A stretch of DNA of 64,000 nucleotides, taken from Pseudomonas putida. GTDB lineage: Bacteria; Pseudomonadota; Gammaproteobacteria; Pseudomonadales; Pseudomonadaceae. A program made the translations under genes and the position numbers. Positions within the stretch are counted from its first letter, which is position 1. Every line of letters starts with the position of its first letter. The stretch spans positions 622,519 to 686,518 of the forward strand of contig NZ_MNAH01000004.1 in the NCBI RefSeq assembly GCF_001976065.1, in the 5' to 3' direction. Below are positions 9,971 to 26,474 of the stretch, one piece after another. The notes under the pieces are model-generated. The model ran no database searches and was not told the origin of the DNA. It saw only the letters and a program-made list of their open reading frames with translations.

Positions 9971-10641
9971 ATCTTTACCCTTACTTCAGTTTGACTCGGG
10001 CAGATGCACGACCGGCTCCGCTTGTGGCGAAAACGACAGAGCACTTGCCCCCGTATAAGGAGCCCCGGAGCGCTTGTTAGTGGCTCTCTGGCAGGCGAAA
10101 AAAGGCGCAACTATTCCGATGCAAGGATGCGGCGTCTAATGCCGTAAACGCCTACCCTATGCCGAATCGGCATGAGGTTTTTTGTGTGAAACGCGCGTCC
10201 CAACCGGTTCGAATGCGACATATTGGCAGGCATAAGTGCCGTGAACCGGCCATCACAGAGCAGGTTGGGTGTTTTTTGATCAGGGGGGAGGGGGACTGAA
10301 AAGAAGGAAAAACCTCTGATGCGCGCCGAGATCCGGGGGGAAAAGAAAGGCGATTTTTCTCGATGTACGGTCACAATTGAAGCGCCGCTAACGAAACCAA
10401 CGGCCTGTTCCAATCAAACGCACTCAGCAGTAAAGCTCTACGCAAGTCCGTCGAGCCGCCTGTGGCCGGCGAACTTGCGTGGCTGGTTCACCCTGACCCG
10501 GCCCTCGCGCAGGCACTCCCTGTACCCGTAGGTCACTCCGCCCCTGAAACAGGCAGAACGTCCCGACCCCTTGGTCATGCGCCTGCCTTCCTCAGGTGGC
10601 GCAGCGGCAAAGAAGCGGTGTGCTTCTTTCGCGTCTGGAAA
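9971..10641. other. 671-bp intergenic region without a convincing gene
   Basis: Short open frames here have poor start context and no recognisable protein. Structural signals: a palindrome ATGCCGAATCGGCAT (10159-10173) just before a T run; an inverted repeat CCGGTTC...GAACCGG (10204-10249) enclosing a second GGCA...TGCC pair; and a purine-rich tract (about 10276-10350, GGGGGGAGGGGG and AAGAAGGAAAAA) flanked by ATCAGGGG/CCTCTGAT. The region must contain the gltP promoter. A small RNA is possible but not shown. Confidence 0.5.
10609..10629 (-). terminator. Hairpin downstream of ivy
   Basis: AAAGAAGC, a five-base loop and GCTTCTTT form a perfect 8-bp stem 13 bases after the ivy stop. The stem itself supplies a U-rich 3' arm, but no separate U tract follows. 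Confidence 0.55.
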
Positions 10642-22420: not shown

Positions 22421-22611
22421 AAAACGACCTTTTCAGGGTTGAGAGCGATCTGCGTTCTAATGCGCAATCAAGGTCTGTCGCTCTCGCGAACTTCATCCTG
22501 CGTCGGGACAAAGCGCACACAAAATCTGCGGCATTATATACTGGCGTCACTGAAACGGAAGCGACACTGCTTGCCGCACCCATTCCTGGCGCCGCCCACA
22601 TCGGAAATCCC

Positions 22612-23256
22612 ATGCAACTCAAGAATCCCATCCTCGGTCTGTGCCAACAGTCCACCTTCATGCTCAGCGCCGCCAAAGTCGACCAATGTCCGGATGACGA
22701 GGGCTTTGAAGTCGCCTTCGCCGGTCGTTCCAACGCCGGCAAGTCCAGCGCCCTGAACACCCTGACGCACGCCAGCCTGGCGCGCACCTCGAAAACGCCG
22801 GGGCGCACGCAACTCTTGAACTTCTTCAAGCTAGACGATGAACGCCGTCTGGTCGACCTGCCGGGCTACGGTTATGCAAAAGTACCGATCCCGCTCAAGC
22901 AACACTGGCAGCGTCACCTCGAGGCCTACCTGGGTGGTCGCGAGAGTTTGAAGGGTTTGATCCTGATGATGGACATCCGTCACCCGATGACCGACTTCGA
23001 CCTGCTGATGCTCGATTGGGCGGTCGCCGCCGGCATGCCGATGCACATCCTGCTGACCAAGGCAGACAAGCTGACCTACGGCGCGGCCAAGAACACGCTG
23101 CTCAAGGTGCAGTCGGAAATCCGCAAGGGTTGGGGCGATGCCGTGACGATCCAATTGTTTTCGGCGCCCAAACGCATGGGCCTGGAAGACGCCTACACTG
23201 TATTGGCAGGCTGGATGGAACTGGCGGACAAGGGCGCCGAAGAAGTTACCGGATAA
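22612..23256 (+). CDS. engB: Ribosome-biogenesis GTPase EngB (YsxC/YihA)
   Basis: A 214-residue small GTPase of the TrmE-Era-EngA-EngB class. G1 is [10 protein letters not shown]2 lies in KTPGRTQ, G3 is DLPGYG, G4 is TKADK. EngB is essential in most bacteria and acts in assembly of the large ribosomal subunit. The order engB, small RNA, polA is conserved from Pseudomonas to enteric bacteria, where the RNA is Spot 42. Confidence 0.95.
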
Positions 23257-23327
23257 GTGTGTAAAAAATCGTCTGAGGTGCGGTCAAGCCAGCGCGGCAT
23301 GACCGCAGCAGGCGGTTTTCTACAGGC

Positions 23328-23372
23328 AAAAAAAACCCCGGACTTCTATGGGGAGGGGGAAGTTCCGGGGTT
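23328..23372 (-). terminator. Intrinsic terminator of the ErsA-type RNA
   Basis: Minus-strand stem AACCCCGGA...TCCGGGGTT, extended inward by a further short helix with a one-base bulge, and followed by eight T residues (positions 23335-23328). The strong U tract is only on the minus strand, which fixes the direction of the RNA. Confidence 0.88.
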
Positions 23373-23460
23373 CAAGTTCTAGACCGCTAGGGCGGGGTCC
23401 AGATATCTGCCAACACTTAACACAACATAGGAGCATCGAAGGGCTTCACCAGCCATTCAG
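23329..23460 (-). ncRNA. ersA: ErsA-type small RNA (Spot 42 position, engB-polA intergenic)
   Basis: Predicted RNA of about 132 bases on the minus strand. Support: an AlgU-like promoter just upstream (GAACTA-N17-TCAGA), a classic Hfq-type terminator with eight U residues at the end, no open frame, and the conserved place between engB and polA where P. aeruginosa encodes ErsA and enterics encode Spot 42. The distance from the predicted start to the U tract equals the reported ErsA length. ErsA base-pairs with mRNAs such as algC and oprD, linking envelope stress to exopolysaccharide and biofilm. The identity is inferred from position, size and signals, not from a sequence comparison. Confidence 0.8.
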
Positions 23461-23464
23461 TAAA

Positions 23465-23492
23465 TCTGAGTGGCTGGAAGCGCAATTAGTTC
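23465..23492 (-). promoter_or_regulatory. AlgU (sigma-22) promoter of the ErsA-type RNA
   Basis: Minus strand GAACTA (23492-23487), 17 bases, TCAGA (23469-23465). It differs from the AlgU consensus at one position in each box. Transcription is expected to begin near 23460. Confidence 0.7.
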
Positions 23493-23592
23493 AATTTTAT
23501 TTCGCGAGCTTTGGAATAATCCCAAGCACCTTTCGGACTAAACAGTCTTTGCGCGGTCTGCCGCGGCATCATGCCGCAGCAGAATTCGCGGC

Positions 23593-26400
23593 TTAGTGAG
23601 CTTCATCCCAGTTGTTGCCCACCCCGACCTCGACCAGCAACGGCACATCCAGTTTCGCCGCGCCGCTCATGTGCAGGCGGATTTCTTCGCTGACCTGTTC
23701 CACCAGATCCTCACGCACCTCAAGCACCAGTTCATCGTGCACTTGCAGGATGACTTTGGCGTCGAGGCCGGAAGCGCTCAGCCAGTTATCCACCGCGACC
23801 ATGGCTTTCTTGATGATGTCGGCCGCCGTGCCTTGCATCGGCGCGTTGATCGCCGTGCGTTCGGCTGCGGCACGCTCTTGCGGCTTGTTGGAATTGATCT
23901 CCGGCAGGTACAGCCGCCGCCCGAAGAACGTTTCCACGTAGCCTTGATCTGCGGCCTGGGCGCGGGTGCGGTCCATGTACTCACGAACGCCGGGGTAACG
24001 GGCGAAGTAGGTATCGATATAGGCCTTGGCCGTCTTGGTATCGACGCCGATGTCCTTGCCGAGCTTTTGCGCACCCATGCCGTAGATCAGGCCGAAGTTG
24101 ATCGCCTTGGCGCTGCGGCGCTGGTCGGAGGTGACGTCAGTGAGTTCGACCTTGAATACTTCGGCGGCGGTTGCGGTGTGCACGTCCAGGTTGTGGCGGA
24201 AGGCATTCATCAGGCCTTCATCCCGGGACAGGTGCGCCATGATCCGCAGTTCGATCTGCGAATAGTCGGCGGCCAGCAGCTTGTATCCGGCCGGGGCGAC
24301 GAAGGCTTGGCGGATGCGCCGCCCTTCAGCCGTGCGCACCGGGATGTTCTGCAGGTTCGGATCGCTGGAGGACAGGCGCCCGGTGGAGGCAACTGCCTGG
24401 TGGTACGAGGTGTGGATTCGTCCGGTTCGCGGGTTGATCTGTTCCGGCAGACGGTCGGTATAGGTGCTTTTGAGCTTGCTCATGGAACGGTATTCCATGA
24501 GCACTTTAGGCAGTCGGTAGTCGTCCTCGGCCAGTTTGGCCAGCACCTCTTCGGCGGTGGAAGGCTGGCCCTTGGCGGTCTTCTTCAGTACGGGCAGGCC
24601 GAGTTTCTCGTAGAGGATGACGCCGAGTTGCTTGGGCGAACCCAGGTTGAATTCCTCACCGGCAATCTCGAAGGCTTCGCGCTCCAGCGCCACCATCTTT
24701 TCCCCCAGTTCGATGCTCTGCACACCCAGCAGGGCAGCATCCACGAACGCGCCCTGGCGTTCGATACGTGCGAGCACCGGTACCAGGGGCATTTCGATGT
24801 CGGTCAGAACGCTGGCCAGGCTCGGAATGGCGTTGAGTTTCTCGAACAGCGCCTGATGCAGGCGCAGGGTGATATCGGCGTCCTCGGCGGCGTAAGGCCC
24901 GGCCTGTTCAAGGGCAATCTGATCGAACGTCAGCTGCTTCACGCCTTTTCCGGCGATGTCCTGGAAACTCACGGTGGTGTGATCCAGGTACTTCAACGCC
25001 AGGCTATCCATGTCATGGCGGGTGGCCGTGGAGTTGAGCACATAGGATTCGAGCATGGTGTCGAAGGCAATGCCACGCACGGTGATGCCGTTGGCCTGAT
25101 CGCCTCCGATGGCGCAGTTGGCCAGGATGTTCATGTCAAACTTGGCATGCTGGCCGATCTTGAGTTTGTCCGGGTCTTCCAGGATCGGCTTGAGAGCGCG
25201 CAAGACGGTATCGCGATCCAGTTGCTGCGGCACGCCGATGTAGGAGTGTGTCAGCGGGATGTAGGCCGCTTCGTTGGCTTGCACCGCGAAAGACAGGCCG
25301 ACCAATTGAGCCTGTTGCGCATCGATGCCGGTGGTTTCAGTGTCGAAGGCGAACAGTTTGGCGTCGTTGAGTTTTCCCAGCCAGGCATCGAACCGTGCCT
25401 GGTCGAGAATGGTTTCGTATTGGGCTTGGGTCGTTACTGCTGGCGCTTCGGCCTCGGCGGCACTGAACAGATCGACTGCCGGCTCAGGCTCGGGGGCAGC
25501 GCCGCTCAGTTCAAGGCGCTTGGCGTCCCGATCAAGATCGTTCAGCCAGCTCTTGAACTCAAGCAAGGTATAGAGCTCGTAGAGTTTGGCTGGATCTTGC
25601 TCACCCATCCGCAGGTCATCGAGACCGATGTCCAACGGTACATCCACCTTGATGGTCGCCAGTTGATAGGAGAGGAATGCCATCTCCTTGTGCTCTTCGA
25701 GCTTGGCCGGCAGGGTCTTGGCGCCGCGGATCGGCAGGGTCGGGACGATATCGAGCTGCGCGTAGAGTTCCGTCAGGCCGCCATTTACGCCCACCAGCAG
25801 GCCGGAAGCGGTCTTTGGTCCTATGCCCGGAACGCCCGGAATGTTATCGGACGAATCGCCCATGAGTGCCAGATAGTCGATGATCTGCTCGGGAGCGACG
25901 CCGAATTTCTCCTTCACGCCCTCTACGTCCATGCTGCTACCGGTCATGGTATTGACCAAGGTAATGTGGCCATCGACCAGTTGCGCCATGTCCTTGTCGC
26001 CGGTGGAGATGATCACTGGGCGATCGGCGGCCGCGCTGCTGCGGGCCAGCGTGCCGATCACGTCATCGGCCTCGACGCCTTCGACGCACAACAGCGGGAA
26101 GCCCAGGGCGATCACGCTTTGATGCAGGGGCTCGATCTGCACGCGCATATCGTCGGGCATGCTCGGACGGTTAGCCTTGTATTCGGCGTACATGTCATCG
26201 CGAAATGTCCCACCCTTGGCGTCGAACACCACGGCGAAGGGGCTGTCCGGGTACTGCTTGCGCAGACTCTTGAGCATGTTCAACACGCCCTTTACGGCGC
26301 CGGTCGGCAGGCCTTTGGACGTGGTCAGTGGTGGCAGCGCGTGAAAGGCGCGGTACAGGTAAGAAGAACCGTCCACCAGGACGAGGGGGGCTTGGCTCAT
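23593..26400 (-). CDS. polA: DNA polymerase I
   Basis: A 935-residue family A polymerase. N-terminal 5'-3' flap exonuclease (about 1-290; VDGSSYLYRAFHALP, DAKGGTFRDDMYAEYKANR, GDSSDNIPGVPGIGPKTA), 3'-5' proofreading domain (about 330-515; FAFDTETTG keeps the metal-binding Asp and Glu) and polymerase domain with motif A DYSQIELR, motif B RRSAKAINFGLIYG and motif C QVHDELV. It fills gaps in repair and removes Okazaki primers. The frame is open to a TTG at 26412, but ATG 26400 gives the normal MSQAPLVLVDG start. It is followed by the ErsA-type RNA and is divergent from the DUF2782 gene. Confidence 0.97.
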   Translation of the reverse strand: MSQAPLVLVDGSSYLYRAFHALPPLTTSKGLPTGAVKGVLNMLKSLRKQYPDSPFAVVFDAKGGTFRDDMYAEYKANRPSMPDDMRVQIEPLHQSVIALGFPLLCVEGVEADDVIGTLARSSAAADRPVIISTGDKDMAQLVDGHITLVNTMTGSSMDVEGVKEKFGVAPEQIIDYLALMGDSSDNIPGVPGIGPKTASGLLVGVNGGLTELYAQLDIVPTLPIRGAKTLPAKLEEHKEMAFLSYQLATIKVDVPLDIGLDDLRMGEQDPAKLYELYTLLEFKSWLNDLDRDAKRLELSGAAPEPEPAVDLFSAAEAEAPAVTTQAQYETILDQARFDAWLGKLNDAKLFAFDTETTGIDAQQAQLVGLSFAVQANEAAYIPLTHSYIGVPQQLDRDTVLRALKPILEDPDKLKIGQHAKFDMNILANCAIGGDQANGITVRGIAFDTMLESYVLNSTATRHDMDSLALKYLDHTTVSFQDIAGKGVKQLTFDQIALEQAGPYAAEDADITLRLHQALFEKLNAIPSLASVLTDIEMPLVPVLARIERQGAFVDAALLGVQSIELGEKMVALEREAFEIAGEEFNLGSPKQLGVILYEKLGLPVLKKTAKGQPSTAEEVLAKLAEDDYRLPKVLMEYRSMSKLKSTYTDRLPEQINPRTGRIHTSYHQAVASTGRLSSSDPNLQNIPVRTAEGRRIRQAFVAPAGYKLLAADYSQIELRIMAHLSRDEGLMNAFRHNLDVHTATAAEVFKVELTDVTSDQRRSAKAINFGLIYGMGAQKLGKDIGVDTKTAKAYIDTYFARYPGVREYMDRTRAQAADQGYVETFFGRRLYLPEINSNKPQERAAAERTAINAPMQGTAADIIKKAMVAVDNWLSASGLDAKVILQVHDELVLEVREDLVEQVSEEIRLHMSGAAKLDVPLLVEVGVGNNWDEAH

Positions 26401-26474
26401 GAGCAGGATCAACCTTTTCGGCGGGTCCGGCGCTAGAATAGCGGGACCGTTGACGACAAAGGGACAAGGTTATC

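Follow-up and report, generated by a model that had tools for sequence, protein, structure and literature searches.

An ErsA small RNA gene in the engB-polA gap of a Pseudomonas putida genome and ErsA-like genes in other families of its order

The window, a stretch of 64,000 nucleotides of Pseudomonas putida DNA, almost certainly encodes ErsA, a regulatory RNA that acts by base pairing and is about 132 nt long, on the minus strand of the gap between engB and polA. This copy is already-known biology, a known kind of gene in its usual place, and the only part that goes beyond the ordinary is the extension of ErsA-like genes to other families, with tandem pairs among them. A preliminary description of the sequence had proposed an ErsA-type small RNA here and had suggested a search with an ErsA covariance model. 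We found that the Rfam model (RF01719, Pseudomon-1/ErsA) matches over its full length, on the proposed strand and at the proposed place, with 128.7 bits compared to a gathering score of 50 (E = 8.4e-26 in the whole 64 kb). It is the single match at E <= 0.001 in the genome. The window RNA has one base deleted and two inserted relative to the model, whose start lies 24 nt inside the gene, with stem-loop 1 preceding model position 1 (Table 1).

The RNA agrees with ErsA in sequence, structure and length, in its gene neighbours, and in having an AlgU-type promoter motif and a terminator. In excerpts from the literature on P. aeruginosa, ErsA is described as an RNA of 132 nt that is encoded in the polA-engB gap and depends on sigma-22 (PMC5819304, PMC8575079, PMC7565897); the promoter type, length, neighbours and terminator found here agree with these descriptions. 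The preliminary description thus holds in each of its main points. What is gained for the window is a firm ErsA annotation including strand, ends, promoter motif and terminator.

Table 1. Features of the ErsA locus in the window
Feature	Position	Strand	Basis
ErsA small RNA gene	23328..23460	-	Rfam RF01719, 128.7 bits; alignments A1, A2
Stretch matched by Rfam Pseudomon-1/ErsA model, model positions 1-116 of 116	23320..23436	-	
-35 element GAACTA of predicted AlgU (sigma-22/sigma-E type) promoter	23487..23492	-	sequence; conserved in relatives
-10 element TCAGA, 17 nt from -35 element	23465..23469	-	sequence; conserved in relatives
Stem-loop 1, RNA nt 2-24	23437..23459	-	fold; 3 of 8 pairs changed on both sides
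Unpaired pairing region (published 'domain II'), about RNA nt 25-57, starting AUGCUCC	23404..23436	-	Rfam structure line; published numbering
AUGCUCC, exact complement of GGAGCAU in the algC leader of the same genome	23430..23436	-	pairing prediction
Most conserved core GUGUUAAGUGUUGGCA, RNA nt 38-53	23408..23423	-	alignments, core searches
Stem-loop 2, RNA nt 58-83	23378..23403	-	fold; 4 of 8 pairs changed on both sides
Stem-loop 3 and eight-U tail, intrinsic terminator	23328..23372	-	sequence, fold, covariation
engB (yihA), convergent neighbour	22612..23256	+	query for relatives' loci
polA, upstream neighbour on the ErsA strand	23593..26412	-	tblastn query on relatives' loci

The gap between engB and polA, in which the RNA had been placed, is real. 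The gene lies on the polA strand, and engB and polA adjoin ErsA in relatives too. We inferred the 5' end, at about 23460, from the promoter and the published length of 132 nt; the 3' end falls within the U-run at 23328. The span of 132 bases given previously is obtained from 23460 to 23329, and counting to the final T of the run gives 133, with the ends accurate to about one base. Directly past engB, we observed an inverted repeat (TGCGGTCA...TGACCGCA, window 23279-23307, plus strand), which is possibly part of an engB terminator.

To compare the window to other genomes, 80 engB loci were fetched from public records. The nearest named relatives include P. umsongensis and P. izuensis rather than P. 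aeruginosa, and no record titled P. aeruginosa was present among the 80 loci. As stand-ins for ErsA of P. aeruginosa PAO1 we used the Rfam model and two loci, L083 and L084 (P. sp. 21 and P. delhiensis). The core of these two reads GUGUUUAG, whereas the window reads GUGUUAAG. One further record (L061), labelled Pantoea sp. Cy-639, contains a Pseudomonas-type engB (86% identical) together with ErsA, and its label is probably wrong.

The consensus of AlgU (sigma-22) promoters is GAACTT-N16/17-TCTGA. The predicted promoter upstream of ErsA, GAACTA-N17-TCAGA, fits this consensus, in line with the AlgU-like promoter that had been noted from the sequence. A recognisable ErsA core was found in 56 of the 80 engB loci. 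When these are taken together with the window, the motif GAAC[TC][TAC]-N16/17-TC[AT]GA occurs upstream in 55 of 57 loci and ends 28-30 nt before the GCUCC of the core, compared to 10 occurrences in 11,400 shuffled upstream regions. Both misses (L075 and L087) have TCACA at the expected -10 position. The 24 loci without a core in that search were L065, L078, L079, L081, L085, L091, L093 and L095-L111; an ErsA-like match in L065 was recovered later by a sequence model. A simple promoter scan of positions 22500-24300 listed no sigma-70 promoter.

Spot 42 (spf, RF00021) has the polA-engB gap, a similar size, stem-loops and a terminator in common with ErsA, and spf of E. coli K-12 occupies the same gap in the same orientation, between polA and yihA/engB. 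Furthermore, an excerpt of a review states that ErsA was first identified as a functional orthologue of Spot 42 (PMC8395346). Nevertheless, the RNA in the gap is very unlikely to be Spot 42 or to be homologous to it in sequence. With the Spot 42 model RF00021, positions 23200-23700 gave no match at E <= 10 and the whole window gave none at the gathering score, and RF01719 has no match in the E. coli polA-yihA gap at E <= 5. The best local alignment between ErsA and Spot 42 covers the terminators and is no better than alignments of shuffled sequences (a fraction of 0.267 of 1000 was as good). As neither model matches the gap of the other and the alignment is at shuffle level, we rejected sequence homology. 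Spot 42 is controlled by CRP and carries an annotated peptide, SpfP, whereas the promoter predicted for the window RNA is AlgU-type. The preliminary description had referred to the position of ErsA and Spot 42: the shared position is real, whereas we found no sequence relation and homology is not supported. ErsA resembles the enteric sigma-E-dependent small RNAs MicA and RybB in that an envelope-stress sigma factor drives a base-pairing RNA; MicA and RybB differ from ErsA in their sequences, loci and targets.

The structure of ErsA was analysed in the window and in two alignments. Folding of the window RNA gave z = -3.09, and none of 200 shuffles was equally stable. Alignment A2, which consists of 32 sequences of the Pseudomonas family picked for diversity, contains three helices with 24 pairs; 94.2% of the cells are paired and 11 pairs are changed on both sides. 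None of 500 shuffles reached the pairing percentage, the number of double-changed pairs or cells, or the covariation score, and 12 of 500 reached the count of further pair types, one of the five covariation measures; these shuffles ignore relatedness and are thus a lenient control. Slid controls dropped to 21-57% paired. In the wide alignment A1 (47 sequences including other families), each of the 11 predicted terminator pairs is changed in a compensatory way in one or more sequences. RNAalifold recovered only the terminator on A1 and not stems 1 and 2; the likely cause is that, in the sequences from outside the family, these two stem-loops are out of register. The support for the predicted stems 1 and 2 is the family alignment A2.

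The terminator is formed by an eight-T run (23335-23328, minus strand) after a G+C-rich stem, which agrees with the strong eight-U terminator described previously on this strand. A simple terminator scan missed it because its loop is longer than the 8-base limit of the scan, and the terminator call rests on the covariance model, the predicted fold and covariation. Downstream of polA, which shares the strand of ErsA, one would expect a hairpin followed by a U-run, and the hairpins might simply terminate polA and engB without belonging to an RNA of their own. We give this reading almost no credence, as conservation also covers stem-loops 1 and 2, the unpaired core and the upstream promoter motif. 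The core, which falls within the published pairing region, is among the best conserved parts and a terminator does not explain this.

An equally negligible chance remains for a small protein gene, read either from an 82-aa frame on the plus strand or from a short frame starting at the AUG at 23436, although both frames are open in the window. The region had been described as having no reading frame, which is not literally true: an ATG frame of 82 aa (23348-23596, plus strand) overlaps ErsA in antisense. In 11 near relatives this frame is either cut short or missing: nine share the start site but reach a stop after 13-64 codons, and the other two lack an ATG there. With start and length this unsteady, it is not a conserved gene. 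We also rejected a peptide from the AUG at 23436, as the minus-strand frame reads through the terminator and reaches its stop only past the U-run.

How ErsA would act in this genome can be outlined from P. aeruginosa, the species that the cited ErsA literature concerns (PMC5819304, PMC8575079, PMC7565897). Envelope stress would free the sigma factor AlgU, AlgU would transcribe ErsA, and ErsA, with Hfq for some targets, would pair with mRNAs via its unpaired region (nt 25-57). According to excerpts from the literature, ErsA represses algC and oprD and activates amrZ and anr, its pairing region is the 34-nt unpaired domain II, the nucleotides predicted to pair with amrZ are 41-52 and 26-56, and the effect on amrZ is Hfq-independent (PMC7565897, PMC8575079, PMC8395346, PMC5819304). 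For anr, the excerpts give a predicted pairing of nt 31-54 with anr +28 to +49 and an Hfq-dependent effect (PMC8575079).

We located three of these targets in the genome of the window: algC by Pfam PF02878 and the gene order coaBC-dut-algC, amrZ by PF03869, and a presumed anr among the matches to PF13545. Pairing with the algC leader is predicted over -37 to -7; within it, AUGCUCC and GGAGCAU form seven perfect pairs at the ribosome-binding site. Because of this exact complementarity, ErsA would block AlgC translation, damping the supply of exopolysaccharide precursors while AlgU is active. When target accessibility is counted, algC ranks second of 61 start regions for predicted pairing. Its pairing reaches a modest p = 0.036 compared to single-base shuffles of the pairing region. 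The signal is weakly conserved: of 19 Pseudomonas loci, five show predicted pairing at p <= 0.05 and six have the exact site GGAGCAT at algC, and among seven more distant rows one shows pairing at p <= 0.05. For anr, the best predicted site (RNA nt 28-53 with anr +24 to +51) lies near the published P. aeruginosa site; by rank, neither anr (26 of 61 start regions) nor amrZ (53 of 61) is supported. Among the targets tested here, algC thus appears the likeliest. The algC step is plausible but unproven, and we put its operation in this species at about an even chance. The identity of the RNA as ErsA is independent of its targets, which stay putative.

Within the Pseudomonas family, RF01719 matches 392 of 398 sampled genomes at E <= 0.001 (the genome of the window included), 381 of them over the cut-off. 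Matches were found in all 19 genera of the sample and in none of 14 control genomes. Two of the six genomes without a match had weak matches in a laxer search, in which the control genome Caulobacter also matched, below the cut-off. Extra matches of 30-37 bits, likewise below the cut-off, were detected in six genomes (G273, G353, G373, G001, G019 and G007; G353 has a third match of 23 bits), and the loci of extra matches (L121-L127) contain no polA or engB homologue. We rejected these as second ErsA copies, as they are below the cut-off and, on visual inspection, those in L121-L126 resemble hairpin RNAs of another kind or terminators. Near 1501-1600, L121-L126 combine weak matches with GCUCC-like and terminator-like parts, perhaps representing a different small RNA.

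Beyond this family, the sequences suggest that ErsA probably predates the Pseudomonas family: the same core (ACUCCU...UGUGUUNAGUGUUG) and an AlgU-type motif occur in a few other families of the order, in most cases adjacent to polA or engB, at scores below the Rfam cut-off. A comparative-genomics paper that reports the motif gives its range, in the excerpt available, as 'Pseudomonadales' (PMC2864571). In our sample of the order, the Rfam model matches 23 of 293 genomes; the 13 over the cut-off all belong to the Pseudomonas family and the other 10 reach about 33-46 bits. We also used a sequence-only model built from 47 sequences, to which nine genomes from outside the family contributed. It matches 29 of the 293 genomes, including 16 of the 280 outside the family, and seven of these 16 are not in the model. 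The 16 genomes belong to families f8 (8), f34 (5), f2 (2) and f13 (1, a weak match with E = 3.7e-4). One genome with a weak Rfam match (G503) is absent from the matches of the sequence-only model. No match to this model was found in the other 264 of the 280 genomes, and with such a patchy range loss or transfer has to be considered, which slightly lowered our confidence in an origin before the family.

Of 17 stretches fetched from outside the family, 14 contain a homologue of polA, engB or both; L140 and L141 (both f2) and L272 do not. In 12 of the 17 (L140-L147 and L268-L271), the core UGUGUUNAGUGUUG preceded by CUCC occurs together with a terminator and, upstream, with GAACTT and an element of the GTC or CTC type. 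This count stems from a promoter-filtered search; L140-L143 and L145-L147 were also found without the filter. Among the remaining stretches, L148 has one extra base in its core, L266 and L267 are model matches only, and L149 and L272 have no core match in the promoter-filtered search. The ErsA-like genes of f2 (L140 1814-1945; L141 1685-1816, minus strand) have no polA or engB on their stretch, where L140 stops at the contig end, and the gene may sit elsewhere in these genomes. The exact 16-base core occurs in 17 of the 293 genomes of the order, with zero occurrences of a reversed control pattern among the rows listed. A 17-base form of the core occurs in 2 of 274 genomes of a class sample, both from the Pseudomonas family.

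In five f8 genomes (G555, G576, G596, G615 and G653) we detected two ErsA-like copies about 190-210 bases apart, each with a promoter motif and a terminator. These tandem pairs lie on polA-bearing stretches (L143, L145, L268, L269 and L271). In L271 (G653), the second copy has diverged and was detected by the pattern alone. In L145, promoter and 5' half are nearly identical between the copies, which suggests a recent duplication or gene conversion.

In the copies from outside the family, conservation is higher in the core than in stems 1 and 2. This would suggest that the targets are an ancient, common set and not the virulence genes of Pseudomonas. If true, the pairing core and AlgU-type motif in other families would suggest an older, general role in envelope stress, and the copies from outside the family would provide an evolutionary filter for real ErsA targets. 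One of the outside lineages may be Hahella, which is a guess of ours and not a result. Hahella is unmentioned in the best 8 of 45 literature matches for ErsA and small RNAs, and copies from outside the family may still have been published.

Lastly, the 16-base core also occurs in 35 stretches of viral contigs (L170-L204), apparently by chance, and a number of these lie within one recurring coding-like motif. We rejected a phage-borne ErsA, as by eye no viral stretch among those listed contains the rest of ErsA. Elsewhere in the window, Rfam RF02999 (ivy-DE RNA) matches positions 10486-10577 on the minus strand, with 92.4 bits compared to a cut-off of 41.4.
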